Assembly: GCA_022340315.1 (NCBI GenBank) | Contig: JAJDOD010000114.1 | Span: forward strand, 1-37,922 | From: Silicimonas sp. | GTDB taxonomy: Bacteria; Pseudomonadota; Alphaproteobacteria; Rhodobacterales; Rhodobacteraceae | DNA length: 37,922 nt | Direction: 5' to 3' | Shown: piece by piece, positions 16,544 to 32,597 of the stretch | Numbering within the stretch: position 1 is the stretch's first letter | Layout: the number at the start of each line of letters is the position of its first letter | Translations under genes and position numbers: made by a program | Notes under the pieces: generated by a model | Told to the model about the DNA's origin: nothing | Database searches by the model: none | The model's input: only the letters and a program-made list of their open reading frames with translations

Positions 16544-17434
16544 TCAGGCGGCCAGCGCCTTGCCACGGCTCAGCGTGAACTCGTCCAGAACTTCGCTGCA
16601 TTCCGGGTCGTCCTCGGCCAGGCTCAGGGTAGCCTTCAGCATCCCAGCCTTCGAGCCACAGTCGAACCGTTCACCCGAGAAGCGGAAGCCTGCAAGTCCC
16701 ACGGTCCCTGCCCCGCGCGAAATGGCGTCGGTCAGTTGAATTTCGCCACCGGCGCCGGGTGTCTGCGTCTCCAGCGCCTCGAAGATCGAGGCGTCGAGCA
16801 CATAACGACCGACAACGGCATCGAGCGAGGGCGCGTCTGCCGGGTCCGGCTTCTCGACCATGCCATCGGCCAGAAGGACAGACCCATCTTGAGATAAAAC
16901 GGACAGGATGCCGTATTTCTTCGTCTCTTCGCGCGGGACGGTCATCGTCGCCACCATGTGACCCGCGTTGTTCCGCTTGTAGGCGTCGATCATCTCGCCA
17001 AGGCAACCTTCCCCGCGGATAAGGTCATCCGGCAAGATCACCGCCACCGCACCCGGCAGCACGTGATCACGTGCGCAGAGAACGGCATGGCCAAGTCCCA
17101 GCGGTTCGTTCTGCATGGTGAATACAACATCATCGTCGATACGGCTGAACGCGGCTTCGGCCAATTCCTCGGCCAGATCACTCTTGCCACGTGACTGCAA
17201 TTCATAGCGAAGTCGCGCGTCGTCCATCACATGCCGCTCGATAGCCCGTTTCGACGGATGGCTGACGAAAACCATCCGCTCGATCCCCGCCGCCTGAGCC
17301 TCGTCGATCGCATATTGGATCAGGGGCGTGTCCAGAACCGGCAGCAGTTCCTTCGGCGTCGCCTTGGTGGCGGGCAGGAAACGCGTGCCCAGTCCGGCAA
17401 CAGGAAAGATGGCGGTGCGTACAGGTGCAATCAT
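16544..17434 (-). CDS. galU: UTP--glucose-1-phosphate uridylyltransferase
   Basis: This 296-residue cytoplasmic enzyme makes UDP-glucose from UTP and glucose-1-phosphate. The nucleotide-binding start TAIFPVAGLGTRFLPATKATPKELLPV is complete, and LIQYAIDEAQAAGI, FTMQNEPLGLGHAVLCAR, VILPDDLI, MVEKPDP, GRYVLD and GEIQLTDAI follow in the usual order. Length is normal. ATG 17434 is chosen because AAGGAG lies 10 bases upstream; the frame extends to 17494 without support. It is divergent to the glucosylglycerol genes. UDP-glucose serves exopolysaccharide and lipopolysaccharide synthesis. GgpS usually prefers ADP-glucose, so a direct link to the osmolyte is uncertain. Confidence 0.95.
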   Translation of the reverse strand: MIAPVRTAIFPVAGLGTRFLPATKATPKELLPVLDTPLIQYAIDEAQAAGIERMVFVSHPSKRAIERHVMDDARLRYELQSRGKSDLAEELAEAAFSRIDDDVVFTMQNEPLGLGHAVLCARDHVLPGAVAVILPDDLIRGEGCLGEMIDAYKRNNAGHMVATMTVPREETKKYGILSVLSQDGSVLLADGMVEKPDPADAPSLDAVVGRYVLDASIFEALETQTPGAGGEIQLTDAISRGAGTVGLAGFRFSGERFDCGSKAGMLKATLSLAEDDPECSEVLDEFTLSRGKALAA

Positions 17435-17755
17435 GACGGCTCGACTCCTTTTTGTTTTCAGCGCAGAACATAATGCACCTGCAGCAAATGTCAAAAAACG
17501 ACATCAACTTGTATCTTTGCGACGTATTTTTGCCCGTTTTTTAGGCATACCGCCGAAATATCCGGCGGCTTGCTGCCAAAAAGTTCACAGATTTTGAAAA
17601 TAATAACTGAAAATCGCGAAATTTTGCACTTGCAGCATTGACCTCACGCTCTCACGGGCCATGTTGCTCCGCATGGAAGTTCTATGATCACCGACCTCGC
17701 GCGCGCTCGCTGACTGGCTGAGCGCGATCACTGGCCACCCACCACCGAGGACGAA
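17435..17755. other. Divergent AT-rich promoter region between galU and gpsA (321 bases)
   Basis: No gene is seen. The region is AT-rich, with runs such as AAAAAACG and GTATTTTTGCCCGTTTTTTAGG. A perfect 6-bp hairpin, CCGCCG-aaatatc-CGGCGG, lies at 17550-17568. TTGACC at 17638 could be a -35 element for gpsA, but no convincing -10 stands 17 bases on. An osmotic control element would be expected here but I cannot identify one. Confidence 0.45.
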
Positions 17756-18898
17756 ATGAAGCACGAACCCATACCATCCAACCCGTTCCCCTTCCAAGCC
17801 AGCCGTTATGAACGCGCGGCCGTGATCGGCGCGGGCTCGTGGGGGACGGCGCTGGCTGCAACGCTGGCGCGGGCCGGGGTCTCGACCCGCATCTGGGGGC
17901 GCGACAAGGCCGTGATCGACGCCATCAACGCACAGCACGAGAACACGCGCCACCTGCCCGGCGTACGGCTGCCCGACCGGCTTCATGGCGTGCGTGAGCT
18001 GGCACATGCGCTGGACGGAGCCGAGGTGGTTCTTATCGTCGTCCCCTCGCGCAGCGTCCGGACGGTCGCGCGGCAGGTCGCCGAGCATGCGCCCGCGAAC
18101 ATCCCAATCGCAGTCTGCGCCAAGGGGATCGAGGCCGAGACAGGCCTGCTGATGACCCAGATCGTCGAAGAGGAGGCGAAAGACCGTCCGATCGGTTGCG
18201 TCTCCGGTCCGACCTTCGCGCGCGAAACCGCGCTTGGCCACCCGACCGCGGCCACGGTCGCCTTTCCGTTTACCTACGCGGATCGGCTGAACCCCGAGAA
18301 GAGCCCGGCGGTCCGCCTTGCTCTGTCGCTGACAACCGAGAGCTTTCGGGCCTATGTCTCGGACGACCTGATCGGCGTCGAGATCGGCGGTGCGGTCAAG
18401 AACGTGGTCGCCATCGCCTGCGGCATGATGACCGGCGCCGGCTTTGCCGAGAACACGCGCGCCGCACTGATCACGCGCGGGCTCGACGAGATGAAGACAT
18501 TGGCAGAAGCCCTTGGCGGCAGAAGGGAAACCGTCACCGGCCTTTCGGGAATCGGCGACCTGGCGCTGACCTGCTCCAGCCCGACCTCGCGCAACATGTC
18601 GCTTGGCCAGCAGCTTGGCCAGGGTACCGCGCGGGACGACTGCTTCGACGGCAAGCCTGTCGTCGTGGAAGGTGAGTTCAACGCCAAGTCGGTCACCGAT
18701 CTCGCCCGGCGCCTGAATGTCGCCATGCCCATTTGCGAAACCGTTCGCTCGATCCTGCACGACGGGACCGGCCTCGGCACCGCCTTCGCCGCGCTCTGGG
18801 CCCGGCCCATCGAGGCCGAGCCGCGCGCAATGGACCTCTCTTTCAATCACCCATCGACAGACCAAGATATCGCAACACTTGCAGAAAGGATCTCATGA
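17756..18898 (+). CDS. gpsA: NAD(P)+-dependent glycerol-3-phosphate dehydrogenase
   Basis: This 380-residue enzyme reduces dihydroxyacetone phosphate to sn-glycerol-3-phosphate. The Rossmann start AAVIGAGSWGTALAATLARAG is at about 21-40. VPSRSVRTV, VCAKGIEAETG, CVSGPTFARET, the catalytic Lys region EIGGAVKNVVAIACGM, RAALITRGLDEM and GLSGIGDLALTCSSPTSRN all match GpsA. It is about 45 residues longer than typical housekeeping GpsA, partly from a 20-residue N-terminal extension. Its stop overlaps the next start (ATGA). Being the first gene of the ggpS operon, it most likely supplies the glycerol-3-phosphate acceptor for glucosylglycerol. A second general gpsA may exist elsewhere. Confidence 0.93.
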   Translation: MKHEPIPSNPFPFQASRYERAAVIGAGSWGTALAATLARAGVSTRIWGRDKAVIDAINAQHENTRHLPGVRLPDRLHGVRELAHALDGAEVVLIVVPSRSVRTVARQVAEHAPANIPIAVCAKGIEAETGLLMTQIVEEEAKDRPIGCVSGPTFARETALGHPTAATVAFPFTYADRLNPEKSPAVRLALSLTTESFRAYVSDDLIGVEIGGAVKNVVAIACGMMTGAGFAENTRAALITRGLDEMKTLAEALGGRRETVTGLSGIGDLALTCSSPTSRNMSLGQQLGQGTARDDCFDGKPVVVEGEFNAKSVTDLARRLNVAMPICETVRSILHDGTGLGTAFAALWARPIEAEPRAMDLSFNHPSTDQDIATLAERIS

Positions 18899-19677
18899 CC
18901 CGTCACGAAACCTTCACCACCTCCGATCTCGCCACCAAGGACTTCGTGCTTGCCACGGACCTCGACGGAACGTTCCTGGGAGGGACCGAAGACCAGCGGC
19001 AGCAATTCTATGGCTGGCTGGAAAGCAACCGTGACAGGGTTGGGCTGATCTTCGTGACCGGGCGCGATCCGGGCTTCATCAGCAACCTGACGCGCAAGGG
19101 CGGCGTACCGCGCCCCGACTACGTCGTGGGCGACGTGGGCACCACCGTCGCGCAGGTCGGGCACGATCATATCCTTTCACCGATCGCCGAGCTTGAAGCC
19201 GAGATTGCGCAAGCCTGGGGCATGGCGGGCGACCGCGTGCAATCGCTGCTGGCCGGCGTTCCCGGCCTGAGACTGCAATCGACAGCCTTCCGCTATCGCG
19301 CCAGCTACGACATGGACCCCGAGCGGTTCGACAGGCGCGCGCTGGATATCGTGGCCGAGGCCGGTCTCGACGCGCTGGTGTCGGACAACCGCTATTTCGA
19401 TGTCCTGCCCAAGGACGTCAGCAAGGGCCCGACGCTTCTGCGCCTTCTCGCGTGGCTTGGTGTCGAGAACAGCCGCACGCTGGTCGCGGGCGATACGCTT
19501 AACGATCTCTCGATGCTCAACATGGGCCTTCCGGCTGTCGCCGTCGGCAATTCCGAACCCGGCCTTATCGAGGCGCTGCAGGGCTGCGAGCACGTTCACT
19601 TCCCTGAAAGCCACGGGGTCGCGGGCATCGCGGAAGCCATTTTCCACCATGAACTTTTCCCAGTGACGAGAGGATAA
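18895..19677 (+). CDS. HAD-superfamily phosphatase, probable glucosylglycerol-phosphate phosphatase
   Basis: This 260-residue cytoplasmic HAD enzyme should remove the phosphate from glucosylglycerol-3-phosphate. HAD motif I is LATDLDGTFLGG (DxDGT, about 20-30), motif II is FVTGRD and motif IV is LVAGDTLNDLSML (GDxxND). A sucrose-phosphatase-type cap lies between, with KDVSKGPTLLRLL giving the conserved motif-III Lys. It differs from cyanobacterial StpA. In Pseudomonas and Stenotrophomonas the two activities are fused in GgpPS, with the HAD part first, and here the same order appears as separate genes. It overlaps gpsA by 4 bases and ends 6 bases before ggpS. Substrate is inferred from context. 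Confidence 0.85.
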   Translation: MTRHETFTTSDLATKDFVLATDLDGTFLGGTEDQRQQFYGWLESNRDRVGLIFVTGRDPGFISNLTRKGGVPRPDYVVGDVGTTVAQVGHDHILSPIAELEAEIAQAWGMAGDRVQSLLAGVPGLRLQSTAFRYRASYDMDPERFDRRALDIVAEAGLDALVSDNRYFDVLPKDVSKGPTLLRLLAWLGVENSRTLVAGDTLNDLSMLNMGLPAVAVGNSEPGLIEALQGCEHVHFPESHGVAGIAEAIFHHELFPVTRG

Positions 19678-19683
19678 ACAGGC

Positions 19684-21171
19684 ATGTCATCCGATCTGGT
19701 CATCGTCTACCACCGACAACCCTACGAGGAGGTCGAAGAGGGCGGCAAGACCGTCCTGAAGGAAAACAAGAGCCCCAACGGCATCGTGCCGACGCTGAAG
19801 AGCTTCTTCGGTGAAGCCGAGCACGGCGCCTGGGTCGCCTGGAAGCTGGCCGACGATCCGTCGAACCCCGATTTCGAGGAACGTATCGAGATCGACGACG
19901 CCTATGGCACGTATTCGGTCTCGCGCCTGCCGCTGACCGCCGGCGAGGTGCGCGAGTTCTATCACGTCACCTCGAAGGAAGCCTTCTGGCCGATCCTGCA
20001 TTCGTTCAAGGAGCGGTACAACTACGACCCCGTCGACTGGGCAAACTTCCGCACCGTGAACTGGAAGTTCGCCGAAGCCGCCGCGAAAGAGGCGGCCGAG
20101 GGCGCGCTGGTCTGGGTCCACGACTACAACCTCTGGCTCGTGCCGGGCTATCTCCGCTCGATGCGGCCCGACCTCAAGATTGCGTTCTTCCACCATACCC
20201 CCTTCCCCGCGGCGGACATGTTCAACGTGCTGCCCTGGCGCAAGGAAATCGTGGCAAGCCTTCTGGCCTGCGATGATGTCGGCTTCCACATCCCCCGCTA
20301 TGCCGCGAACTTCGTGTCGGTGGCGCGCAGCCTCTTCGATGTCGATGTGACCGAGCGCGTGAAAGTGCCCGAGAACTGGATTTCCGAGGGTACCGCACTT
20401 ACGGAACGGACCTATCCCTCGATCATCCGCCACCAGGATCGCGACGTTGCGATAAGTGTTACGCCGGTCGGCGTGGACACCGCCTTCATCGACGAACGCA
20501 CCCGCTCGGAGGATGCCGAGGAACAGGCGGCGCGCATTCGCGACGAGATGGGCGACGGCAAGCTGATCGTCTCGGTGGGCCGCACCGATTACACCAAGGG
20601 CGGCATCGAACAGCTAGGCAGCTTCGAGCGCCTGCTTGAGGAACACCCCGAGCTTCACGGCAAGGTCCGTCTCATGCACGTCTCGGTCTCGGCCAATCGC
20701 GGCATGACGGCCTATGAAAGCATCCAGAACGAGATCGAGCAGACCGCAGGCCGCATCAATGGCCGTTTCGGCACACTCGAATGGCAACCCGTCGCTCTGA
20801 TCTCGCGCGCGATCCCGTTCGCGCAACTCGTCGCCTATTACAAGGCGGCGGACGTGGCCTGGATCACGCCGCTGGCGGACGGCATGAACCTTGTCTGCAA
20901 GGAGTTCTGCGCCGCTCGTACCGATGGCGACGGCGTTCTTGTGCTCTCGGAATTCGCCGGCGCCGCCGTCGAACTTGGCGAAGCGCTGATTGCCAACCCG
21001 TTCTCCAACCGCTCGATGGATCGCACGATCCTGGAAGCGCTGGAGATGCCCGGGATCGAGCGCAAGCGCCGGATGGCATCGCTTCGCAAGGCCGTCGAGG
21101 AGAGCAATGTCCGCAACTGGGCGCCTGGCTTTCTCGATACGTCACGCGAATTGATCTACGCGGCGGAATAA
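19684..21171 (+). CDS. ggpS: Glucosylglycerol-phosphate synthase (GT20 family)
   Basis: This 495-residue enzyme joins glucose from a nucleotide sugar to glycerol-3-phosphate, the key step to the compatible solute glucosylglycerol. The N-terminus VIVYHRQPYEEVEEGGKTV, KSPNGIVPTLKSFF and YHVTSKEAFWPILHSF are hallmark GgpS stretches that differ from trehalose-phosphate synthase. GT20 motifs follow: VWVHDYNLWLVPGYLR, IAFFHHTPFPAADMFNVLPWR, ACDDVGFHIPRYAANF, SVGRTDYTKGG, ITPLADGMNLVCKEF and LSEFAGAAVEL. Length equals cyanobacterial GgpS. Start ATG 19684 follows AGAGGA. The stop lies 6 bases from the convergent acyl carrier protein gene; no T-tract terminator is seen between them. Confidence 0.95.
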   Translation: MSSDLVIVYHRQPYEEVEEGGKTVLKENKSPNGIVPTLKSFFGEAEHGAWVAWKLADDPSNPDFEERIEIDDAYGTYSVSRLPLTAGEVREFYHVTSKEAFWPILHSFKERYNYDPVDWANFRTVNWKFAEAAAKEAAEGALVWVHDYNLWLVPGYLRSMRPDLKIAFFHHTPFPAADMFNVLPWRKEIVASLLACDDVGFHIPRYAANFVSVARSLFDVDVTERVKVPENWISEGTALTERTYPSIIRHQDRDVAISVTPVGVDTAFIDERTRSEDAEEQAARIRDEMGDGKLIVSVGRTDYTKGGIEQLGSFERLLEEHPELHGKVRLMHVSVSANRGMTAYESIQNEIEQTAGRINGRFGTLEWQPVALISRAIPFAQLVAYYKAADVAWITPLADGMNLVCKEFCAARTDGDGVLVLSEFAGAAVELGEALIANPFSNRSMDRTILEALEMPGIERKRRMASLRKAVEESNVRNWAPGFLDTSRELIYAAE

Positions 21172-21177: not shown

Positions 21178-21399
21178 TCAGCCAAGCAGCTTCGCGACAT
21201 CCGCGAAGCCGCGCAACCCGACGATTTCCATCGGATCGAGGCTGCGGCCAAGCCGCGCTTCAAGCGCCGTGACTATGCGAAAATGAGCGAGGCTGTCCCA
21301 GGCCTCGCAGCTTTCCAGGGCGGTCGCTTCACCAACCTCGCCCGGCGCCAGCCCCAGGGCCTCGGCCAGCAGGTCGCGTGCCGCGTCGCCTCCGGTCAT
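21178..21399 (-). CDS. Acyl carrier protein
   Basis: This 73-residue protein has the ACP helical fold: ARDLLAEALGLAPGEVGEAT, then CEAWDSLAHFRIVTALEARLG with Ser in the DSL motif (about residue 38) for phosphopantetheine, then MEIVGLRGFADVAKLL. It differs from the fatty-acid AcpP by WDSLAHF and a lower acidic content. Such specialised carriers usually serve a dedicated ligase and acyltransferase. Its ATG overlaps the GNAT stop (ATGA), indicating coupling with the AMP ligase-GNAT pair. A 21-base inverted repeat (GCTTCGCG-acatc-CGCGAAGC, 21189-21209) lies in its last codons and might end transcripts from the convergent ggpS. Confidence 0.88.
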   Translation of the reverse strand: MTGGDAARDLLAEALGLAPGEVGEATALESCEAWDSLAHFRIVTALEARLGRSLDPMEIVGLRGFADVAKLLG

Positions 21400-22007
21400 G
21401 CCGGCACCAACCCGCGCGTCTCGCGCCAGTCCTCGGCCAGGTACTCGAAATACATCGTGTCGGCATGTTCGCCGGTCACCGGCGAGAGCCACGACTTCCG
21501 GTCGTATCCGATCAACCGGAACCCCAGCTTCTGATAATTGTAGATCGAACTGACGTTGCGGCTGAGGACGCGGCCGGCAAAGCGCATCACGTCCGGCGAA
21601 CCGCTGAAATGGTCCATGAGCCCGGTCCGGACCTCCTCGAAAACACCTTTGCCCCACCAGGATTTTGCCGTCAGCACGATCGACATGGCGGCGGTGCCGG
21701 AACGGTCGATCCGGATGCGGTGGGCCCCGATCGTCCCCTTGATCTCGCGCGCGACGATGGCGTGATAAAACAGGTGCCGCCCGTCCGGCTTGCCCATCGC
21801 CTTGACCCATTGAAGGCGCGTGTACGCGGGCTTGTCGTACATCAGGTTGTGCAGGATATCCGGGTTCGAGGCCCAGGGGAGCGTGATCTTCAAGGCCTCC
21901 GCCGTCGTGCAGCTCACCAGGTCGAAGCGTTCGGTTCGCACGGGCTTCGTCAGGTAGGGGTCCGGGTCCGTTCTCTTGCCAAGGTTCAGGACCATGCCGC
22001 CACCCAT
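21396..22007 (-). CDS. GNAT-family N-acetyltransferase (RimJ/RimL-like acyltransferase)
   Basis: This 203-residue protein has GNAT features: RFDLVSCTTAEALKITLPWASNP at the start, FYHAIVAREIKGTIGAHRIRID as the central strands, MSIVLTAKSWWGKGVFEEV in the cofactor region where 'GxGxA' normally occurs (here WGKGVF), and GRVLSRNVSSIYNYQKLGFRLIG at the end. The relaxed cofactor loop leaves room for an acyl-ACP donor instead of acetyl-CoA. The gene sits between the AMP ligase and the ACP, overlapping both. An acyl transfer from ACP to a sugar amine or protein is a reasonable inference. ATG 22007 has GGAG 8 bases upstream; ATG 21995 is an alternative. Confidence 0.85.
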   Translation of the reverse strand: MGGGMVLNLGKRTDPDPYLTKPVRTERFDLVSCTTAEALKITLPWASNPDILHNLMYDKPAYTRLQWVKAMGKPDGRHLFYHAIVAREIKGTIGAHRIRIDRSGTAAMSIVLTAKSWWGKGVFEEVRTGLMDHFSGSPDVMRFAGRVLSRNVSSIYNYQKLGFRLIGYDRKSWLSPVTGEHADTMYFEYLAEDWRETRGLVPA

Positions 22008-23404
22008 TTCGCACGCTCCGCCCTGCGGTCAGGCTTGCCCCGGTCGGTCTTCGCGATCTCGTCCGCCACTGCAACACGATGCGGCACCGCATCCGCCCGC
22101 ACCTCGCCCCGGCACCAGGCGATCAGTTCCTCTGGCGTCGTCTGCCCGTCGATCCGCACCACCGCGCCGACCAGTTCGCCAGAGATCTCATCCGGTATCC
22201 CGAAAGCGCAGGCCTCCAACACATCCGGATGCCGCTCCAGCAGCATGTCGACCTCTTCGGCCAGCACCTTGATGCCACCCTTGTTGATCTCGTTCTTCAC
22301 CCGGCCGATCAGCCTGAGTGTCTGATCCTCCTGCAACTCCCCGATATCACCTGTCATCAGCCAGCCGTCCGGCGTCTCGGCCTGCTCCGCCGCTCCCCAG
22401 AGACCCAGCATTCGGGCGGGGGACTGCACGGCCACCTCTCCCCGGCCCGTCTCGCGCAGAGCGCCGTCACGAAACACCCCGAACCGGCCTCCCCAGGGCT
22501 TGCCGACGTTGCCCTCCGCGCCAGCGGCATCGAGGCGCGCACCCGAGATCCAGTTTGCCGTCTCGGTCATGCCGTAGGTGTTGTAGACCTCGTCTGTCCC
22601 GCACCACTCCGCGATCTCCGACCAGAGCGCCACCGGCAGTGGCGCCGAACCGACATGCACCCGGCCAGGCGGCGCCGCGGGCGGCGGTGACATCCGCAGG
22701 ACCATTCGCCAGAACGATGGCACCGAGCTGAGAAATGTCACGTTCAGCCGGTCGATAAGCGCGCCCATCCCGGCGAAATCCTCCATCCCCGGCCGGTCGA
22801 GGATATGCACTGTCCCCCCCGCCAGAAGTGGCGTCAGGCAGTTGCCGATCAGACCGTGCCCGAAATAAAGCGGCAGCGGGCAAAGCGCGCGCGCGAGCGC
22901 CGTCTCACCGATCGCGGCCAGGTTAAGCCGCAGCCGCGCCTCCAGCCCCGCAAGGCTGTGCGTTACGCCCTTGGGCTCGCCCGTTGTGCCGGACGTCATG
23001 AGGATCAGCGCCGCATCTGGCCACTCCGGCGGCGGTGCGTCCCCGGCCACCGGCCTCAAGCCCGACGCTCCGAACCAGAGCCGGGGTGTTACCTTGGCGG
23101 TAACCCGCACCCGTTCATCCGGCTTCAACTCCGGGTTCACCAGAACCGCACAATTGCCCGAAACCCAGGTCGCGAACAACGCCACCAGGCAGGCGAGCGG
23201 GTCTCTGGCTGCGACGACCACCCGCGCACCGCCGCCGCCCACCGCCTCTGCGATCTCACCGGCGAGCGCCTCCACTCGATTGACAAGCAATTGATAATCC
23301 AGAACTTCTCCGGTTCGCAGCGCGTGAACACTTGCCGTCTCGGGCAGGTCCCTCACAAGCGGTGTCGAGCGAAACGAGCGCATCTGCGACACCGTGGCGT
23401 CCAT
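21986..23404 (-). CDS. Class I adenylate-forming enzyme (acyl-CoA/acyl-ACP ligase family)
   Basis: This 472-residue protein activates a carboxylic acid with ATP and loads it on a thiol. The core motifs are ALILMTSGTTGEPKGVTH (A3 P-loop, about residue 140), PLYFGHGLIGN, VGSAPLP, YNTYGMTETANW (A5), GWLMTGDIGELQEDQTLRLIGRVKNEINKGGIKV read in parts (A7-A8) and TDRGKPDRRA with the A10 Lys. It is shorter than typical acyl-CoA synthetases (about 500-550) but all motifs are present. Its start ATG shares one base with the yjbF stop, and its end overlaps the GNAT start. The adjacent ACP suggests it loads a carrier protein. The acyl substrate cannot be read. Confidence 0.9.
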   Translation of the reverse strand: MDATVSQMRSFRSTPLVRDLPETASVHALRTGEVLDYQLLVNRVEALAGEIAEAVGGGGARVVVAARDPLACLVALFATWVSGNCAVLVNPELKPDERVRVTAKVTPRLWFGASGLRPVAGDAPPPEWPDAALILMTSGTTGEPKGVTHSLAGLEARLRLNLAAIGETALARALCPLPLYFGHGLIGNCLTPLLAGGTVHILDRPGMEDFAGMGALIDRLNVTFLSSVPSFWRMVLRMSPPPAAPPGRVHVGSAPLPVALWSEIAEWCGTDEVYNTYGMTETANWISGARLDAAGAEGNVGKPWGGRFGVFRDGALRETGRGEVAVQSPARMLGLWGAAEQAETPDGWLMTGDIGELQEDQTLRLIGRVKNEINKGGIKVLAEEVDMLLERHPDVLEACAFGIPDEISGELVGAVVRIDGQTTPEELIAWCRGEVRADAVPHRVAVADEIAKTDRGKPDRRAERAKWVAAWS

Positions 23405-24099
23405 CAGTCCAGCGGCTCAAGAACATCGTAGCGGATCGCGCCCTGGTGCGGCCCCGTCCACTGCGTCGAAGACCAGATGAACCCGCTTGCCGGATCGACG
23501 AAATGCCGGTTTGCAAAGCGAATGTCCCCGCCTGCGCAGGTCTCATCCACGGTGACGACGGAATGCCTCCGCCCGACGATTGCGATGGACCCGGCCTTGC
23601 CCCGGTGAAAGCGGCAGGTGACGGTCACCGCCCTGCCCGGCCCCCGGTCCGAGACAGTGTAGCTTCGCGCGATGCGCTCGGGCCAGCGCGCAAGCGGGCG
23701 CGGGAAGGCGACCGGATCGCCGGCCGAGACGCCGATGGGCGCAAGGTTGTGTCCGAAGCCGGACGTGCTTTGCACCAGCCCGCCGTGCATCACCAGCCGC
23801 CGATCCGACCGCAACACATAGGTGACCTGCGGCCCGGTCTGCCGAAACGCGACCATGAGGTTCGTCTCCGGCACGCGCTCCTCCGACACGCGCAGAAGGG
23901 CCACGCCCATCGCCTCGACCTGTGCCCGCGTGATGGTTCGGGCGGGGTTCGCCGGGGTCGCTCCGGCGCCTGTGCGTGCAAGGTCGTCGCGAATCGCCGC
24001 GACCATCGGGCTTGTTCCCGAGGACGAGCAGGCCCCCAGGACCAGAGCGCCTGCAAGCGCGAGACCTCTGAGCCGCCTCAGTTCCAAAACGCCCCCCAT
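23404..24099 (-). CDS. yjbF: YjbF/GfcB-family exopolysaccharide lipoprotein
   Basis: This 231-residue protein starts with a lipoprotein signal: LALAGALVLGACSSSGTS, with Cys24 as lipidation site. The body follows the YjbF/GfcB pattern: VEAMGVALLRVSEERVPETNLMVAF, VTYVLRSDRRLVMHGGLVQSTSGFGHNLAPIG and a C-terminal FVDPASGFIWSSTQWTGP. In E. coli, yjbEFGH and gfcABCDE-type genes contribute to extracellular polysaccharide production. I chose ATG 24099, with AAAGGA 9 bases upstream, which overlaps the yjbH end by 22 bases. The longer frame is antisense-like and unsupported. The protein should sit in the outer membrane facing the periplasm. Confidence 0.87.
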   Translation of the reverse strand: MGGVLELRRLRGLALAGALVLGACSSSGTSPMVAAIRDDLARTGAGATPANPARTITRAQVEAMGVALLRVSEERVPETNLMVAFRQTGPQVTYVLRSDRRLVMHGGLVQSTSGFGHNLAPIGVSAGDPVAFPRPLARWPERIARSYTVSDRGPGRAVTVTCRFHRGKAGSIAIVGRRHSVVTVDETCAGGDIRFANRHFVDPASGFIWSSTQWTGPHQGAIRYDVLEPLD

Positions 24100-26183
24100 G
24101 CGTCGTCGATCCTTTGCGACCGGGCATCCTGCACCCGGCCCATCAGCCGGTCGGGAACCGAGACGCGCGCGCCGGCGTCGCCGTAATTGCCGCCCAGCGC
24201 AAGTGTGCTGCGCCGCCGGGTTTCGGCGCCCGAGAAGGTGGCAAGCGGGATCGAGATGCTCGCCCCCAGCTTGAGGTTCTCGTCCCGGTTGTCCTCGGTC
24301 AGCGTGGCATAGAGCGAGGCGTCCCAGCCGTTGGGGAAGTTGCGCGACAGCGTCAGTGTCGTGCCCCAGTCTCCGGCGATGTAGCGCCCCGCATCGACAC
24401 GTGCCGACACGCCACGATAGCCGGTGTCCCAATAGAGCGACAGGAACCCGGTCAGCGCGTCGTAATCCAGCGTGCCGAAGGGATCGTCGTAGGCGCGCTT
24501 GCGTGCATAGGTCACCTCGGCGCCCAGTGCCCAGTCGCGCCCATCGGGCAGCCAGACGGCCTCGGCACTCAGCCCGCTGTACTGGCGTTCGAGGATGCCG
24601 AAGGTCAGCCCGCCATAAACGGTCTGGCTCATCTTGCGCGAGTAGGCCCCGTAAAGCCGGTCCAGCCGCAGGGCGTTGCGGTCATATGACCCGCCGTCGC
24701 TGCGCGCGGTGGGTGTTGGGGGTGCGGGATCGGCGGTGCGATCACCTGCAACGAGGAACGACAGCGTTCCGGCGACGTAGAAACTGTCCGACAGATCATA
24801 GCGGACGTCGCCGAAAAGCGCCGCTTCCGGGTCGATCTCGCCGTCGGCGTCCAACGGCAGCGACAGGGCGGGCGACACTTCCCACGAAAGCCCGCGCCGC
24901 TGGGGCGCGCGCCAGTCCCAGGTTTCCGCCGGGTCGGCTCCGGCAACGCCGGTCAGTGCCCGCGACGCCGGCCCGCGCGCCGGCGCATCCGCCAGCGCCA
25001 CGACCTGGTCGCGCGGTACTCGGAAGGTCGCGCCGGGCAAACCACCCTCGAACACGGTTATCTCGAATGTCTCGACCGAGGGCGGCGCCACCTGCGACAG
25101 GACCCGCACCGTCCGCCCGACAAGTTGCGGCGCCGAAGTGTTGCCGGGGGTCGAAACGCCGAGACGCATGACCCTCGCCGATGCCCCGAAACGTTCGACC
25201 CGGACCGAGGATGGCTCCAACGCCTTGCCGGTCGCTTCGCGCAGGGCTGTCATGATCTCCGGGCGCTCGGGCCAACCCGTTATGTCGCGGCCGATGGCCG
25301 GCCGGGGTTCGGCGAAGACCGGCACGTTGCCCAGGTCGGGCGGATGCGGCGGTTTTTTCGGATTGGCGTGGAACGTCAGCCCCAGGCCGGCGGTATCTCC
25401 GTTGCGGCTGTAGGCAACAAGGTCCAGCCCATCGGCCACCCGATACCTGGCCGCGAAGCTGAACCGGCTTTCGGGCGCTGCAGCCCCATAGGAGCTGGCC
25501 GAGCTGTATTCCGCCGCCAGCGTCAGCCCCTCGATCGGCGTGTCCCATTCGATGCCCGCAAAGGGCGCCGCATCGCCCTGGAACAGATGCCCGAACTCGC
25601 CGCGCCGCGCCGCGCCCTGCGGCCGGTCCGCAAAGACATCGCCCGCGGTATCGTAGCCGCCAAGCCGCCCCCAGCCGAGCCCGAGGCTGACCCGCAAGCT
25701 GTCACCCAGCGTTTTGCCGGCAACGACATACTCGGCGCTTTCCCGGCTGTTCGAGAAGAGATCGTCGATTCCGACCGACAGCGCGGGCATCACCGGGCCC
25801 TCGTCCACGAGCCGCAACTTGACGTTCAGCGCCAGGTTATCGAGCGACACGCCGCCGCCGATATCCGCGAAACTGGTGAAGGATAGCGAAGTCTCGAGCC
25901 TCGGCGCCGCCTGGAACGCCAGCGACACCGCCCGCAGGTCCTCGTCGAAGGCAAGGCTTGCGGCAATGTCCGCGTCCCGCCCCGAAAAAGCCGAGGGCAT
26001 GTCGACGATTCCGGTAATCCCGTTGCGCAGCCGCTGTGGTTCGGCCGAGGCAGTCAGCAGACCCGACAGCAGAACGGCGCCCGCGATCGCCGCAGTCCGA
26101 AAGGAAAATTTTGCCCCAAATCCCAATATAGCGACCGCCCGGCTTGGAAATACCTCATGTTGTGGGTAATACGTTACCTGCAT
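24078..26183 (-). CDS. yjbH: YjbH-family exopolysaccharide outer membrane protein
   Basis: This 701-residue protein has an N-terminal export signal (FRTAAIAGAVLLSGLLTASAEPQ). LRNGITGIVDMPSAFSGRDADIAASLAF opens the YjbH fold: 'G..G....PsA....G' is typical of this family. The whole length is rich in alternating strands with aromatic girdles, as in a beta-barrel (LYGAYSRKMSQTVYGGLTFGILERQYSG, GFLSLYWDTGYRGVSARVDAGRYIAGDWG). It would lie in the outer membrane for polysaccharide export or assembly. Start is uncertain: ATG 26183 leaves a long 30-residue lead before the hydrophobic stretch; a TTG near 26126 is an alternative. It is the first gene of a five-gene overlapping operon. Confidence 0.88.
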   Translation of the reverse strand: MQVTYYPQHEVFPSRAVAILGFGAKFSFRTAAIAGAVLLSGLLTASAEPQRLRNGITGIVDMPSAFSGRDADIAASLAFDEDLRAVSLAFQAAPRLETSLSFTSFADIGGGVSLDNLALNVKLRLVDEGPVMPALSVGIDDLFSNSRESAEYVVAGKTLGDSLRVSLGLGWGRLGGYDTAGDVFADRPQGAARRGEFGHLFQGDAAPFAGIEWDTPIEGLTLAAEYSSASSYGAAAPESRFSFAARYRVADGLDLVAYSRNGDTAGLGLTFHANPKKPPHPPDLGNVPVFAEPRPAIGRDITGWPERPEIMTALREATGKALEPSSVRVERFGASARVMRLGVSTPGNTSAPQLVGRTVRVLSQVAPPSVETFEITVFEGGLPGATFRVPRDQVVALADAPARGPASRALTGVAGADPAETWDWRAPQRRGLSWEVSPALSLPLDADGEIDPEAALFGDVRYDLSDSFYVAGTLSFLVAGDRTADPAPPTPTARSDGGSYDRNALRLDRLYGAYSRKMSQTVYGGLTFGILERQYSGLSAEAVWLPDGRDWALGAEVTYARKRAYDDPFGTLDYDALTGFLSLYWDTGYRGVSARVDAGRYIAGDWGTTLTLSRNFPNGWDASLYATLTEDNRDENLKLGASISIPLATFSGAETRRRSTLALGGNYGDAGARVSVPDRLMGRVQDARSQRIDDAWGAFWN

Positions 26184-26280: not shown

Positions 26281-26532
26281 ATGTTCAAATCCATTCTCAG
26301 GGGCGCTGGCATTTCCCTTTCGTTCCTGTCGCTCGGCAGCATGGCCACCGCTGGTTCGCTGGCCGAGGGCGTCGCGGATCCGCAAGTCGAGGATCTGGTC
26401 ATCGAAGAGGAAAGCGGAAACTCGATCGGCATCCTGCCCATCATCGGCCTGCTGGTGGTCGGCGCGCTCATCATCTCGAGTGGTGGCGGTGACGACGGGC
26501 CGACAAAGGAAGAACCTCCGGTCACCAAGTAA
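26281..26532 (+). CDS. Small exported glycine/acid-tailed protein, YjbE-like
   Basis: This 83-residue protein starts with a signal peptide (MFKSILRGAGISLSFLSLGSMATAGS). An acidic stretch follows (VADPQVEDLVIEEESGNS), then a hydrophobic helix (IGILPIIGLLVVGALIIS) and a polar SGGGDDGPTKEEPP tail. E. coli YjbE/GfcA are also small exported proteins with a hydrophobic part and a glycine-rich end, next to yjbF-H. The resemblance is in layout rather than sequence. AAGGAAAG precedes the ATG at 26281. It is divergent from yjbH and followed by its own terminator, so it is transcribed separately. Confidence 0.75.
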   Translation: MFKSILRGAGISLSFLSLGSMATAGSLAEGVADPQVEDLVIEEESGNSIGILPIIGLLVVGALIISSGGGDDGPTKEEPPVTK

Positions 26533-27546: not shown

Positions 27547-28551
27547 ATGCCTGGTCCAACCCTGAAAGACGTCGCCGAGCGCGCCGGTGTCTCCCGCTCC
27601 GCGGTCTCGCGCACGTTCACCGACGGCGCGTCGGTCTCGGACCGGATGCGCGCAAAGGTCGAACAGGCCGCGTCGGACCTTGGCTATAGCCCCAACGCGC
27701 TCGCCTCCTCGCTGACCACCGGGCGCACCAAGCTGATCGGACTGATCGCCAACAACTTCCACAACCCTCTGTTTCTCGAAATCTTCGACCTGTTCACCCG
27801 CGCCCTTCAGGATCGCGGCCTGCGCCCGCTCCTGGTCAACCTGACGGATGAAACCGACCCCGAGAACTCGGTCCGCATGATGCGCGCCTACTCGGTCGAT
27901 GGCGTCGTGGTTGCCACTTCCACCCTGCCGCCCGTCTTCGCCAAGGCTTTTCGCGACGCGGGCATTCCCGTTGTTCACAGCTTCGGGCGCTTCTCACCCC
28001 GTCCGCGCGTCCATGTCGTCGGCATCGACAACCTTGAATGCGGGCGCATGGCGGCCGTCGAACTTATCGAGCGCGGTTATCGCCGGATCGGCTTTCTCGG
28101 CGGTCCCGAGGCCGCAACATCGACGCAAGACCGTCTGAACGGCTTCGCCGCCGAACTGGCCAAGCACCCGAATGTGACCCTCAGCGACTCCTTCGCCGAG
28201 GGCTACACCTTCGAGGCCGGGCAAAGCGAAATGCTGAGGCTGATTGCCGACGGCCCGGCCGAAGCCTATTTCTGCGGCGACGACGTGATCGCGGTCGGCG
28301 CACTGGCGGCGCTTCGGGACAGCGGTTTCAAGGTGCCGGAAGACGTCGGCCTCATCGGGCTGAACGACATGGAGATGTCGGGCTGGCAGAACATCGACCT
28401 GACCACCATCCGGCAGCCGGTCAGCGACATCGTCGCCGCCAGCGTCGACGTGATGGACCACCTGCTGGAAAACCCCGAGGCCAGCCCGAAAGCCCGTCTC
28501 TTCTCCTGCACGGTGATCGAGCGCGGCACGCTCAGACCCAGACCCAGATGA
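27547..28551 (+). CDS. LacI-family transcriptional regulator of the inositol cluster
   Basis: This 334-residue protein has a LacI helix-turn-helix at residues 5-50 (TLKDVAERAGVSRSAVSRTF, hinge YSPNALASSLTTGRTKLIGLI). A sugar-binding-protein-type effector domain follows (NNFHNPLFLEIFDLF, VDGVVVATSTLPP, IDNLECGRMAAVELIERGYRRIGFLGG, YFCGDDVIAVGALAAL). The hinge LASSL probably inserts in the minor groove of the central CG of its operator. Two identical palindromes, one in front of this gene and one in the iol divergent promoter, define its likely regulon. The inducer would be an inositol intermediate, by analogy with other inositol repressors. Its stop overlaps the following GNAT start. Confidence 0.92.
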   Translation: MPGPTLKDVAERAGVSRSAVSRTFTDGASVSDRMRAKVEQAASDLGYSPNALASSLTTGRTKLIGLIANNFHNPLFLEIFDLFTRALQDRGLRPLLVNLTDETDPENSVRMMRAYSVDGVVVATSTLPPVFAKAFRDAGIPVVHSFGRFSPRPRVHVVGIDNLECGRMAAVELIERGYRRIGFLGGPEAATSTQDRLNGFAAELAKHPNVTLSDSFAEGYTFEAGQSEMLRLIADGPAEAYFCGDDVIAVGALAALRDSGFKVPEDVGLIGLNDMEMSGWQNIDLTTIRQPVSDIVAASVDVMDHLLENPEASPKARLFSCTVIERGTLRPRPR

Positions 28552-29300
28552 GCAGCCTTCTCGACAAGGTCGACGCCCTCGCCGGCTGGACCGCGGCAAC
28601 CCCCGGCGCCTGCAACGGCGGCCGGGCCATGGCGACCGACGATCCCGACCTGCTCGGCTGGCCGGTGATCCGCGCGCATTTCGAGGAAGACGGCGTCTTC
28701 GTCTTCCGCCACGTCCCGACCGCCGATGTCGCCCGCATCCGCGACCGCGTCGCCGACTGGGGCGGCACGCTGCACGAATGGCGCATCTTCCACGCATCGG
28801 CCGACCGGATCGCCGCCAACCGCACCCCGAAGGACGCGCCAGAAGGCTACGAGTTCACGACCGAAGCCCGGCCCGACGAGGACACCGTGACCGAGGTGAT
28901 GTCCTTTCTCTCCGCCCGAGGTCTCAAACCCTTCACCCGCCGCATCCTGTCCGGTGACATTAGCCCTTCAAGCCTCGTCACCGCGCGGACGCAGGACGGC
29001 ACGCTCGCCGCCGTCGCCTTCGGCCATTTCTGCTTCACGCCGCCCAGCATCTGGGACGGCACCGCCTGGTCCGGCCTCGTCGCCGTCGAGGAAAGCGCGC
29101 GCGGCACCGGGCTGGGACGCGCCGTCAGCGACGCCGCCATCGACGCGATGATCGGCACCCACGGCGCCCGTGCGGTGGTCGAATACGCCACCGCCGACAA
29201 CATGCCGTCCCGCCGCATGATCGAAGGCAGCGGCCTCCGGATGCGCGACGACATCCTCACCTGCGCCGCAACGGCCGGAAGCACCCCCTACACGCGCTAG
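28548..29300 (+). CDS. GNAT-family acetyltransferase co-translated with lacI
   Basis: This 250-residue protein has a C-terminal GNAT domain (about 140-240). GLVAVEESARGTGLGRAVSDAAIDAMIG carries the acetyl-CoA loop R-G-T-G-L-G, and ARAVVEYATADNMPSRRMIEGSGLRMRDD is the usual end. The first 130 residues (AGWTAATPGACNGGRAMATDDPDLLGWPV...WGGTLHEW) are not a known GNAT part and may bind a substrate. The ATG overlaps the lacI TGA by one codon frame (ATGA), so it is coupled to the regulator. The acetyl acceptor is unknown; modification of an inositol derivative or of a protein is speculative. Codon use matches its neighbours. Confidence 0.83.
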   Translation: MSSLLDKVDALAGWTAATPGACNGGRAMATDDPDLLGWPVIRAHFEEDGVFVFRHVPTADVARIRDRVADWGGTLHEWRIFHASADRIAANRTPKDAPEGYEFTTEARPDEDTVTEVMSFLSARGLKPFTRRILSGDISPSSLVTARTQDGTLAAVAFGHFCFTPPSIWDGTAWSGLVAVEESARGTGLGRAVSDAAIDAMIGTHGARAVVEYATADNMPSRRMIEGSGLRMRDDILTCAATAGSTPYTR

Positions 29301-29344
29301 GCGAAAATGCGCATTTTCGCCCGCAAAATCTGCGCAGATTTTGC
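29300..29344. terminator. Two tandem 22-bp perfect palindromes between convergent genes (bidirectional terminator)
   Basis: GGCGAAAATGC/GCATTTTCGCC at 29300-29321 and GCAAAATCTGC/GCAGATTTTGC at 29323-29344 are each perfectly self-complementary. Together they fill the whole spacer and touch both stop codons. AT-rich arms inside GC ends give A and T runs on both strands, fitting a two-way terminator. They could instead be a mobile palindromic repeat used as terminator. Confidence 0.8.
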
Positions 29345-30477
29345 TATCTCAGCGACGGCGGCCGCGCATCCACCCATTCGCCCCGCCCCTTGGCCGAGGC
29401 CACCGCGTAATGCACCGCCGCCATCGAACGCAGCCCGTCCTCTGCCGTGGGATAGGCCCCATGCGCCTCGCCCCGGATCGCGGCCGCCAGATCGACATAG
29501 ATATTGGCCACCGCCAGCGGGAACCCCTCGGGATGCGCAATCGCCACCCGGCTCAGCCGCGCCGCTTCTTCCGACAAGCCGCCCTCGCCCTTCTCCATGA
29601 TCTGCGTCCGACCGCCAACGGGCGTATAATAGACCTGGTTGGGCTGTTCCGAAGCCCAGCGCATCCCGCCGGTTTCTCCGAACACCTGGATATCGAACCC
29701 GTGCTGCCGCCCGATCGCCACGGACGAGGTCCAGAGCCGCCCCACCGTGCCGCCCTCCATCCGGAAGTTCACCATCGCGTCGTCTTCCAGTTCGCGGCTC
29801 GCAATGGTCGAGGCGAAATCGGCGGAAAGCTCCCGCACCTCGTCACCGGCGACGAAAGACGCCATGTGCAGCGCATGGATGCCGCAATCGGCAAACTGCC
29901 CGGAGACACCCGCCATCTTCGGATCATAGCGCCAGCGCACCCGCGGATTGTCCGCATCCGTCGCATCGCCGTGGTGCCCGTGGCTGAAGTTTGCCACCAC
30001 CAGCCGCACCTTGCCGATCTGGCCCGTGGCCACCATCTGCCGCATCTCGCGCACCATCGGATAGGCGCTGTAGCAATAGTTCACCGCGCAGATCCTGCCG
30101 CTGGCCTTCGCCACGCGCACGATCTCCTCGCCCTCCTCGACAGTCATCGTCATCGGCTTCTCGCACAGCACGTTGAACCCGGCTTCAAGGAACGCCTTGG
30201 TGATCTCGAAATGGGTCGAGTTCGGTGTGGCGACAGTAACCAGATCCACCCGGTCGGGCCGGTCGCGCTCGCCCGCCAGCATCTCTTCCCAGTCGCCATA
30301 GGCCCGGTCGGCCTCGACCCCCAGCCGCTGCGCATAGGCACGGCCTCTTTCAGCATTCACGTCCAGCGCTCCGGCGGCCAGCACGAAATTCCCGTCCGCC
30401 TGCGCGCCAAGGCGGTGCGCGGGCCCGATCTGGGACCCCTCACCGCCGCCGATCATTCCCCAAAGCAGTCTCGCCAT
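29344..30477 (-). CDS. Gfo/Idh/MocA family NAD(P)-dependent oxidoreductase (1)
   Basis: This 377-residue enzyme has an N-terminal Rossmann fold (LLWGMIGGGEGSQIGPAHRLGA, then LVTVATPNSTHFEITKAFLEAGFNVLCEKPM with the family EKP motif near residue 105). The C-terminal part carries the catalytic GVSGQFADCGIHALHMASFV, with D and H in the usual GxxxDxGxH position. The GGGEGSQIGPAHR start is a subtype often placed in sugar and inositol clusters. It is the last gene of the operon after the IolE-like gene (one-base gap). It likely oxidises a cyclic polyol or sugar acid; the substrate is unknown. It ends in the twin palindromes. Confidence 0.9.
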   Translation of the reverse strand: MARLLWGMIGGGEGSQIGPAHRLGAQADGNFVLAAGALDVNAERGRAYAQRLGVEADRAYGDWEEMLAGERDRPDRVDLVTVATPNSTHFEITKAFLEAGFNVLCEKPMTMTVEEGEEIVRVAKASGRICAVNYCYSAYPMVREMRQMVATGQIGKVRLVVANFSHGHHGDATDADNPRVRWRYDPKMAGVSGQFADCGIHALHMASFVAGDEVRELSADFASTIASRELEDDAMVNFRMEGGTVGRLWTSSVAIGRQHGFDIQVFGETGGMRWASEQPNQVYYTPVGGRTQIMEKGEGGLSEEAARLSRVAIAHPEGFPLAVANIYVDLAAAIRGEAHGAYPTAEDGLRSMAAVHYAVASAKGRGEWVDARPPSLR

Positions 30478-30478
30478 C

Positions 30479-31366
30479 TCAAAATCCTATGGATTGAAGG
30501 TAGTCGCGGTTCGCCCGCGCATCGTCGACGGGCCGCACATCCAGCGTCGGATCGCAATCCTGCTCGACCGTGCACCAGCCCTCGAAACCGTTCTCAAGCA
30601 GGATCTCCCGCACGGCCGGGAAATCCACGTCGCCGTCGCCCAGGTTGCAGAAAATACCCTGCCCGCAGGCCTTGTAGAAATCCGTGCGATTGGCAACCAC
30701 ATCCGCCTTAACCTTGGGGTCGATGTCCTTGAAATGCATATACGAAATCCGCCCGATATGTCTTCCCATGAACGCCACCGGGTCGAACCCGGCATAGGAG
30801 TGATGCCCGGTATCGAAACAGATCTTCAGCAGGCTCTCGTCCACCTCGTCCAGGAGCCTCTCCAGTTCCGGCTCGAAATCCATGAATCCCGCCGCATGGG
30901 CATGCATCCCCACCGTCAGCCCGTGATCGACCCCGATCCGCGCCGCCTCGGCGATCCGGTCGCGATAGGCCAGCCATTCGGACTTCTCCATCTGCTCGGC
31001 CTCTTCCACCCGACCCGCCGTCGGAGCACGGCGCGGCGAGATCGAATCGATCAGCACAAGGTGCTGCGCCCCATGCGCCACCAGCGCCTTGCAGGTCCGC
31101 ACCGTGCCGTCCAGCACATCGTCCCAGGCGGCGGGATCATGAAACGGCCGAAAGACGACACCCCCGATCAGCTCCAGATCATGCTCCGCCAGCGCCTCGC
31201 CCAGCTCCGCCGGGTCCTCCGGCATGAACCCCACCGGCCCCAGCTCGATACCGGTATAGCCCGCCTCGGCGTTCTCCTTCAGCACCGTCCGCCAGGACGG
31301 GTTGCGCGGATCGCCCGCGAACTCGACACCCCAGGAACAAGGGGCGTTGCCAATCCGAATGGTCAT
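30479..31366 (-). CDS. Sugar phosphate isomerase/epimerase, IolE-like inosose dehydratase
   Basis: This 295-residue TIM-barrel protein begins IRIGNAPCSWGVEFAGDPRNPSW, followed by AGYTGIELGPVGFMPEDP. The same opening marks IolE, 2-keto-myo-inositol dehydratase, which makes the diketone cleaved by IolD. Metal-site residues fit: E of VGMHAHAAGFMDFEPELE, CFDTGHHSYAG with D and HH, and YMHFKDID, WCTVEQDCDP at the end. Its place between two dehydrogenases and opposite iolD supports the role, but related xylose isomerase-like epimerases share these motifs. ATG 31366 follows AGGAG; the longer frame is rejected. Confidence 0.85.
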   Translation of the reverse strand: MTIRIGNAPCSWGVEFAGDPRNPSWRTVLKENAEAGYTGIELGPVGFMPEDPAELGEALAEHDLELIGGVVFRPFHDPAAWDDVLDGTVRTCKALVAHGAQHLVLIDSISPRRAPTAGRVEEAEQMEKSEWLAYRDRIAEAARIGVDHGLTVGMHAHAAGFMDFEPELERLLDEVDESLLKICFDTGHHSYAGFDPVAFMGRHIGRISYMHFKDIDPKVKADVVANRTDFYKACGQGIFCNLGDGDVDFPAVREILLENGFEGWCTVEQDCDPTLDVRPVDDARANRDYLQSIGF

Positions 31367-31379
31367 CTCTTGTGCTCTC

Positions 31380-32471
31380 CTAAAGCGCCATGTCGACCCA
31401 GGCGCGCGTCTCTGCCGAACGCCGCGCCGCGTCAATGATTCGCATCACCTCCAGCCCGTCCGCGAAGGTCGGCCAGACCGGCGCGCCGGTCTCGATCGCC
31501 TGCAGGAAATCCCGCGCCTCGATGATGATCTGGTCCTGGTAGCCCGTCCCGTGCCCGGGCCCGAGACAGAACGGCTCGTAATCGGGATGCGCCGGCCCGG
31601 TCAGGATCTTGCGGAATCCCCGCTCCGCCTCCGGTCCCTCGGCCCGGTAGAGCCAGAGCGCATTCTGATCCTCCTGGTCGAAGCGGATCGCGCCCTTCGT
31701 CCCGGTGATCTCGTAGGCATAGCCCATCTTCCGCCCCGTCGCGACGCGGCTGAAATAGAGATGCCCCATCACTCCGCTGGCAAAGCGGCACATGAACTGC
31801 GCATGGTCGTCGTTCGTCACCTCTCCGCCGGGCCGTATGCCGTGCACCGTCGCGATCTCGGCATTGACGCTGGCAATCGGGCCCAGCAGCGCCAGCGCGC
31901 AGTTGATCATGTGCGGGCTCAGATCGCCGATCGTCCCGTTGGCGTCACCGGAGGTCCGCCACGAGGCCGGCGCCTGCGGATCGGCAAGAAAATCCTCCGT
32001 ATGCTCCCCCCGGAACCAGGTGACATCCCCGATCTCACCATCGGCAACCAGCTTGCGGGCAAACTGGGTCGCGGGCGTGCGCACGTAATTGTAGCCAACC
32101 ATGCTCACATGGCCCTCGGCCGCGCGCACCATCGCCTCGGCCTCGTCCAGGCTCGCGCCCATCGGCTTCTCGCACATCACCGGCAATCCCCGCGCGAAGG
32201 CCGCCTCGGCGATCTCTAGGTGCAACTCCTGCGGCGTGGCGATCACAACCGCCTCGACACGCGGATCTGCCACCAGCTCGCGCCAGTCCCCGGTCGCTCG
32301 CGCGAAACCGAAAGCCGCCCGGTACCGCTCGGCGCTCTCCGCCGAAGACGCCGCGATCATCTCGAGACGCGGCCTGAGCGTGGTGCCGAAGACCGCGCCA
32401 ACGGCCGCCATCGCAACCGAATGCGCCTTGCCCATGTAGCCGCCGCCAACGACGCCAATCCCGATTTCGGA
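31380..32471 (-). CDS. Gfo/Idh/MocA family oxidoreductase (2), probable inositol dehydrogenase
   Basis: This 363-residue enzyme has the Rossmann motif IGIGVVGGGYMGKAHSVAM, VVIATPQELHLEIAEAAFARGLPVMCEKPMG (EKP) and a catalytic stretch GTIGDLSPHMINCALALLG with D-x-x-x-H. It fits a dehydrogenase acting on myo- or scyllo-inositol to inosose, the first step before IolE. I chose GTG 32471 since GGAGGA lies just upstream; the longer frame would start inside the operator palindrome at 32500-32519. The gene is first in the minus-strand operon, divergent from iolD and under the same operator. Which inositol isomer it uses cannot be read. Confidence 0.9.
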   Translation of the reverse strand, partial: SEIGIGVVGGGYMGKAHSVAMAAVGAVFGTTLRPRLEMIAASSAESAERYRAAFGFARATGDWRELVADPRVEAVVIATPQELHLEIAEAAFARGLPVMCEKPMGASLDEAEAMVRAAEGHVSMVGYNYVRTPATQFARKLVADGEIGDVTWFRGEHTEDFLADPQAPASWRTSGDANGTIGDLSPHMINCALALLGPIASVNAEIATVHGIRPGGEVTNDDHAQFMCRFASGVMGHLYFSRVATGRKMGYAYEITGTKGAIRFDQEDQNALWLYRAEGPEAERGFRKILTGPAHPDYEPFCLGPGHGTGYQDQIIIEARDFLQAIETGAPVWPTFADGLEVMRIIDAARRSAETRAWVDMAL

Positions 32472-32499
32472 CACTGGCTCTCCTCCCTCGCAGATTCTG

Positions 32500-32519
32500 T
32501 TTTGCAACCGGTTGCAAAA
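32500..32519. promoter_or_regulatory. LacI-family operator in the divergent inositol promoter (20-bp perfect palindrome)
   Basis: TTTTGCAACCGGTTGCAAAA is perfectly self-complementary. It contains the 14-bp core found before lacI. Lying 29 bases upstream of one operon start and 79 bases upstream of iolD, it can control both. TTGCAA at 32512 with TAACAG at 32535 (17-base gap) may be the iolD promoter, which the bound repressor would cover; that part is tentative. Confidence 0.88.
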
Positions 32520-32597
32520 TCCCTAGCGTCAGAATAACAGCAGCACAAGCGGCAACTTTCGGCTATGCCTGAGGCATAGGCTCCTAGGGAGGATGAC

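Follow-up and report, generated by a model that had tools for sequence, protein, structure and literature searches.

A yjbH-yjbF export pair joined by overlapping genes to a ligase-GNAT-ACP trio that may acylate its cargo in Silicimonas sp.

We analysed a window consisting of an entire contig (JAJDOD010000114.1) of 37,922 bases from a Silicimonas sp. assembly (3.33 Mb, 210 contigs, 86% complete; the genome is G000 below, with G for genomes and L for loci), in which genes of the YjbH and YjbF export families overlap genes for an adenosine monophosphate (AMP)-forming acyl ligase, a GNAT acyltransferase and an acyl carrier protein (ACP). Read head to tail on the minus strand from 26183 to 21178, the operon begins with yjbH (24078..26183), which encodes a GfcD-like outer-membrane double beta-barrel of 701 amino acids (aa) (PF06082, 387.4 bits, cut-off 24), followed by yjbF (23404..24099), encoding a putative GfcB-like lipoprotein of 231 aa (PF11102, 96.8 bits, cut-off 25.9) with an LGAC motif that we take to be a lipobox. 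The genes for the ligase (21986..23404; 472 aa; PF00501 149.7 bits, PF13193 55.8 bits), the GNAT (21396..21995, with an alternative ATG start at 22007; PF13302 34.7 bits, cut-off 25.4) and the ACP (21178..21399; 73 aa; PF00550 26.0 bits, cut-off 20.8), which carries Ser36 in a WDSLxH motif, complete it, and all five genes lie above their curated Pfam cut-offs. Reading the junctions from the DNA confirmed the five overlapping genes described in the original prediction: yjbH and yjbF overlap by 22 nucleotides (nt), yjbF and the ligase gene by 1 nt (TGATG), the ligase and GNAT genes by 10 nt counted from the ATG at 21995 or by 22 nt if the start is the upstream ATG (22007), and the GNAT and ACP genes by 4 nt (ATGA). 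These overlaps suggest that the five genes are translated together. The operon does not include yjbG/gfcC, yjbF overlapping the ligase gene directly, a result for the operon itself, as the rest of the genome was not searched with a GfcC profile.

The coupling of YjbFH to the ligase-GNAT-ACP trio is a real, recurrent unit. A ligase profile built from four sequences and used at a threshold of 1e-95 matched 4 of 394 genomes of the same family (G000, G001, G212 and G362) and 14 of 385 genomes of the class, G000 included, and a wider profile used at 1e-110 matched 3 of 398 genomes sampled across the phylum, which added one genome (G813). Across all samples this gave 18 distinct ligase loci, and in the loci examined the ligases were cleanly separated, scoring at least 473 bits versus 126 for the next open reading frame (ORF). 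At one of them, L098 of G362, which belongs to a different genus, we found the same genes in the same order with overlaps of 22, 1, 10 and 4 nt, the GNAT start corresponding to ATG 21995 being common to both loci and the yjbH of G362 being truncated by the contig end. Identity between the two operons is 52% for YjbH (458 aa compared), 47% for YjbF, 58% for the ligase, 65% for the GNAT and 56% for the ACP, and their ligases group as sisters in the tree, with support of 100/99. Because the junctions are kept at 47-65% protein identity, the operon appears to be under selection as a unit. The 22-nt yjbH/yjbF overlap is not peculiar to the window, since a start giving 22 nt is available in 7 of 11 other yjbFH pairs examined. 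Of the two doubts raised in the original prediction, one held, the trio usually lying away from yjb genes (16 of the 18 ligase loci are without YjbH in the examined stretch), and the other did not, since the presence of the operon in G362 rules out that it is unique to one strain or a chimera.

The YjbH of the two operons also stands apart within its family. With a profile made from the window and L098 sequences, G000 scored 1488 bits and G362 971 bits, the next best among the 394 family genomes reaching 483, and this YjbH forms a separate branch found only in these two of the 394. The other YjbH proteins of the family are at most 34% identical to the window's among the best dozen BLAST matches, and the nearest trio-less YjbH in our alignment (L126) shows 37% identity, in a family in which 94 of 149 genomes have PF06082 matches. 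Four congeners, whose assemblies are 83-94% complete, gave neither a PF06082 match nor a ligase match at 1e-60, with which acquisition of the genes as a set would fit. The OPX protein (PF02563), present in 14 of 14 genomes searched, was non-discriminating, and a ligase search of 72,556 plasmid records at 1e-70 gave no match. Also set aside were 37 loci from a ligase-only contig scan (24-43% identity, mostly actinobacterial), not counted as orthologues, and a GNAT match in G060 (25% identity), dropped because its 11.8-kb contig has no ligase or ACP match.

Approached from the side of yjbH, as the original prediction had proposed, a survey of yjbFH neighbourhoods found an ACP and a GNAT of the trio kind at two of 43 loci, namely the window and L098. 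These loci were hand-picked, with about 9 kb inspected on each side where the contig allows, 40 of them being chosen from the window-nearest and best-scoring matches and not at random, and an ORF counted as a trio gene only if it matched one of the trio profiles. A low-scoring AMP-ligase-like ORF lies several kb off in three other yjbH loci (L134, L151 and L159). In G674 a YjbH sits in an open frame of 1092 aa (contig C51, 2666-5665) about 81 kb from a trio on the same contig; for G813, YjbH was looked for at the ligase locus only and not genome-wide.

The trio itself is widespread as a set. It is complete and together at 15 of the 18 ligase loci, from 10 families of the class (the window, L039, L040, L041, L098, L099, L100, L102-L108 and L171), with the ACP and GNAT swapped in order at L100; at L109 and L110 the ligase and ACP are accompanied by a GNAT some kb away, and at L101 the ligase stands alone in 12 kb. 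Ligase and GNAT distances correlate (Mantel r 0.81, p 0.0002, n=14), as do those of ligase and ACP (0.35, p 0.008) and of GNAT and ACP (0.35, p 0.006), correlations that common descent alone could also give. The motifs are intact by sequence and by predicted model: each of the 17 ligase sequences compared has the TSGTT..PK motif for ATP binding and the A10 lysine, the ACP serine motif WDSLxH is invariant in 14 of 14 aligned, and the GNAT keeps its fold. Searches of open-access papers, within the text accessible there, turned up no description of the cassette as a unit and, in agreement with the original prediction, no described yjb locus with this module.

Ligase residues point to the kind of acid that may be activated. 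At the place of the FDxS of adenylation domains (A-domains), all 17 sequences compared have FGHG, a motif without Asp, and alignment to two LgrA domains placed the A-domain Asp on ligase His183 in one case and on Gly184 in the other. We take the Asp at position 235 to be the residue that binds the alpha-amino group in amino-acid A-domains, and with no Asp at that position activation of an alpha-amino acid by the ligase was ruled out. An Asn-Trp pair, likewise invariant in 17 of 17, presumably occupies positions 330/331 of the specificity code, and the nearest solved structures to the ligase are oxalate-CoA ligases. Given the FGHG motif without Asp, the Asn-Trp pair and this likeness, the substrate is probably a small, polar, non-alpha-amino acid. 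The GNAT, modelled in its 203-aa form with a pLDDT of 88, is of the RimL/SpeG/AAC(6')/PseH type by both sequence and fold matches; among many tied fold matches, of which the best reached a Z of 18.0, PseH (4ri1) scored 16.7 and FdhC (5ktc) 16.5.

The predicted structure of YjbH agrees with a two-barrel exporter. Its AlphaFold2 model (mean pLDDT 80) has 12 strands at residues 73-273, a middle domain and 13 strands at residues 431-664, a layout that agrees with the one published for Escherichia coli GfcD, as given in the accessible text (PMC11494523). A fold search with the model returned general barrels (porins, ushers, FadL, LptD) at TM-scores of at most 0.21 by model length and nothing specific, and a sequence search of the PDB with YjbH gave nothing meaningful. 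For the E. coli proteins, the accessible text of a second paper reports that GfcB, GfcC and GfcD interact (PMC8592465).

Beside yjbH and divergent from it, a small ORF (26281..26532, plus strand) encodes 83 aa that begin like a signal sequence and include a hydrophobic stretch, a candidate YjbE-like partner. Similar small ORFs are found in 12 of the 43 yjbH loci, the window included. Seven ORFs served as seeds for their profile; the ORFs of the window, L039, L127, L128 and Phaeobacter inhibens were among these and match by construction, and the profile additionally found L126, L130, L132, L133, L135, L137, L140, L144 and L151. Against this profile E. coli YjbE scored 6.6 bits (bias 12.5) and GfcA below zero; the place and layout of YjbE are similar. 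The ORF at 26281-26532 is the single match in the whole window assembly. G362 has three matches, all on other contigs, and the matching side of its yjbH lies beyond the contig end, while G001 has five, one of them directly after the ACP of its trio, its yjbFH being on another contig. Since the family is multi-copy in several genomes, this adjacency weighs less; at E 0.01, where the weakest matches are doubtful, G346 has 10, G233 has 9 and G093 has 7.

At its other loci the trio keeps varied company. L105 surrounds it with Polysacc_synt_2, DegT, cytidylyltransferase-aminotransferase and glycosyltransferase-28-GNAT proteins, a set that we take to be a pseudaminate-type cluster, and L109 has a Polysacc_synt_2 gene. 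Also at L109, the ACP close to the ligase (11137-12285) forms a fusion with a methylisocitrate-lyase/PEP-mutase domain, which hints at possible processing of the acid while it is carrier-bound. L104 has GDP-mannose dehydratase, ManC and UDP-sugar dehydrogenase genes about 4 kb and more from the trio, and a TPR-sulfotransferase gene adjoins the ligase gene of L103. PqqD genes and transglutaminase-like/lasso-B2-like (PF13471) genes lie near the trio of L099 (7349-9178) and L171 (7313-12669), in two different families, the lasso-B2 score in L099 being 32.9, just below the cut-off of 33; each locus also encodes a protein (343 or 327 aa) that matches no Pfam family, and at L171 an NTP_transf_5 protein adjoins the ACP. 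A type I secretion set is near the trio of L041, and reading the ORFs of L040, L100 and L102 gave no clear theme. Because trio loci sit in pseudaminate-type (L105), PqqD/lasso-B2-like (L099, L171) and type I secretion (L041) settings, we conclude that the cassette is general and serves several cargoes, the Yjb link being one of its uses. In L106 (8074-9258), L107 (10668-11816) and L108 (8070-9233), all of one genus, an ORF of 382-394 aa precedes the ligase gene; that of L107 has no Pfam or NCBIfam match at the thresholds used.

Within the window, the operon is flanked by genes of other themes. The stretch 16544-21171 encodes a GalU-like protein, a glycerol-3-phosphate dehydrogenase, an HAD phosphatase and the glucosylglycerol-phosphate synthase GgpS (663 bits, cut-off 569), and is likely a glucosylglycerol set convergent with the operon. 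These genes were not kept as operon partners, G362 having no GgpS match at 1e-60 in a search run without a positive control; the same search, also without a positive control, matched none of the four congeners, so that no empty-site comparison could be made through GgpS. At 3708-11441 a signalling island comprises a PP2C phosphatase, an FHA protein and a pair of large protein kinases, of which one has a weak PDZ match below cut-off, and at 27547-37285 a LacI-type regulator (by reading), then a TPP enzyme, a PfkB kinase and a KduI/IolB protein look like a myo-inositol catabolism set.

Several known systems resemble the operon in part. The E. coli yjbEFGH and gfcABCD (group 4 capsule) loci share with it the YjbH and YjbF families, the 12 + 13 strand layout, overlapping genes and an adjoining small ORF. 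In contrast to them, the window operon is without yjbG/gfcC, runs in the order yjbH-yjbF and has the added ligase, GNAT and ACP genes, and its small ORF is divergent, with a YjbE likeness that is only candidate. The usual Rhodobacterales type, as on P. inhibens plasmid pPGA1_65, also has an overlapping yjbH-yjbF pair (4 nt there) and an adjoining small ORF, with no yjbG/gfcC annotated; there, however, the pair lies among dTDP-rhamnose, sugar transferase and polysaccharide export genes, the trio is lacking and YjbH is 30% identical to the window's. For the chemistry, the likeness is one of function: in SB-203208 biosynthesis, according to the accessible text, 2-sulfamoylacetate is loaded on an ACP by SbzL and then transferred to an amine by the GNAT SbzI, as shown in vitro (PMC6331615). 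By analogy with this SbzL - SbzG/K - SbzI relay, in which an adenylate-forming enzyme, an ACP and a GNAT move a small acid to an amine, the trio may work as a relay too, although the Sbz system belongs to antibiotic biosynthesis and that text notes no export genes (PMC6331615). Flagellin glycosylation islands likewise place an ACP and a CaiC-type or AMP-dependent ligase inside a surface-glycan locus, but with LuxC, LuxE and FabG-type genes, and their accessible descriptions contain no yjbFH link and no ligase-GNAT-ACP cassette (PMC4875605, PMC7874193). The exosortase A-associated ligases of TIGR03098 are of the AMP ligase family and named for an exosortase-associated system; membership was ruled out for the window ligase, which scores 97.2 bits against a cut-off of 592.35.

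We give an even chance to the reading that the trio acylates an amine, probably that of an amino sugar, of the YjbFH cargo. In the course of reactions that we infer, the ligase would adenylate a small carboxylic acid other than an alpha-amino acid and load it on the ACP, the GNAT would move the acyl group from the ACP to an amine of the cargo in the cytoplasm, most likely that of an amino sugar in a glycan or in its precursor, and YjbF and the two-barrel YjbH would carry the acylated product to the surface. In favour of this reading we count the recurrence of the operon, its distinct YjbH branch, the lack of these genes in the congeners, the integrity of the trio and its motifs, the pseudaminate-type setting of L105, the Sbz relay and the YjbH model. 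Of the original prediction of an acylated exported polysaccharide or anchor, the coupling is borne out, being present with identical junctions in a second genus and joining a distinct YjbFH branch to a conserved cassette; the acylated molecule may be a polysaccharide, and an anchor is less favoured, as ligase residues probably point to a small acid. A number of observations weigh against amino-sugar acylation of a Yjb cargo. The operon is without any glycosyltransferase gene, 41 of the 43 inspected yjbH loci have no trio-type ACP or GNAT, and YjbH lies within the examined stretch at only 2 of the 18 ligase loci, both in incomplete assemblies (86% for the window, 79% for G362, where yjbH is cut). 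Moreover, the trio has non-glycan neighbours at L041, L099 and L171, the best solved matches to the GNAT by sequence profile are aminoglycoside 6'-acetyltransferases, and PseH and FdhC are tied as fold matches with polyamine, ribosomal-protein and aminoglycoside acetyltransferases; since sugar, polyamine, protein and aminoglycoside types tie, the fold does not pick the acceptor.

The 16 ligase loci at which the examined stretch has no YjbH would be expected if the trio made an N-acylated small molecule unrelated to Yjb export and shared a transcript with yjbFH for regulation or by descent only. Gene order and four overlaps kept between two genera at 47-65% identity, and a joined YjbH branch occurring nowhere else in 394 genomes, speak against such a bystander and make it unlikely. 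Alternatively, the acceptor could be a protein or peptide, for instance the product of the small ORF, with YjbFH exporting or displaying the acylated protein. Such ORFs occur in 12 of the 43 yjbH loci and directly after the trio in G001, PqqD and lasso-B2-like (PF13471) genes lie near the trio in L099 and L171, a type I secretion set is found at L041, and RimL is among the fold matches of the GNAT, as is a lasso-peptide acetyltransferase at rank 19; for E. coli, the authors suggest in the accessible text that GfcA may be modified and then sent to GfcD (PMC8592465). Set against this, 31 of the 43 yjbH loci are without such an ORF at the threshold used, the three G362 matches are on other contigs, with the relevant side of yjbH past the contig end, and a Sec-exported precursor would need acylation before export; a protein acceptor seems to us quite unlikely.

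Very unlikely, in our estimate, is that a hydrophobic acyl anchor is the product of the trio, made by it or only completed by it, and that YjbH releases the anchored glycan sideways, through a gap in its C-terminal barrel, into the outer leaflet. This proposal draws on the accessible parts of the E. coli work, in which GfcD, a relative of YjbH, is modelled as a lipid-anchored polysaccharide exporter with the lateral exit of the lipid anchor simulated (PMC11494523), and a LolA-like fold is reported for GfcB, which is related to YjbF (PMC8592465), and by the secondary structure of its model the YjbH of the window keeps the 13-strand C-terminal barrel. However, the published GfcD mechanism is computational (PMC11494523), and the invariant FGHG and Asn-Trp residues and the likeness to oxalate-CoA ligases would argue for a small polar acid.

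Returning to amine acylation of a Yjb cargo, we tentatively propose, as a possible but doubtful extension, that the acyl group, instead of being a decoration, serves as an export or anchoring tag that the system places through its private ligase-ACP-GNAT relay on its own cargo, a glycan or the small secreted protein, and that YjbF and the two-barrel YjbH would recognise the tag, the cargo being released at the outer membrane. If true, no earlier Yjb/Gfc system would have had tag chemistry built in, and the cargo of a Yjb system would become readable from the load of its ACP. On the cargo of YjbH/GfcD, for which one published computational model proposes lipid-anchored polysaccharide, this operon gives a direct handle through the acid that its ligase loads on the ACP and the acceptor of its GNAT.

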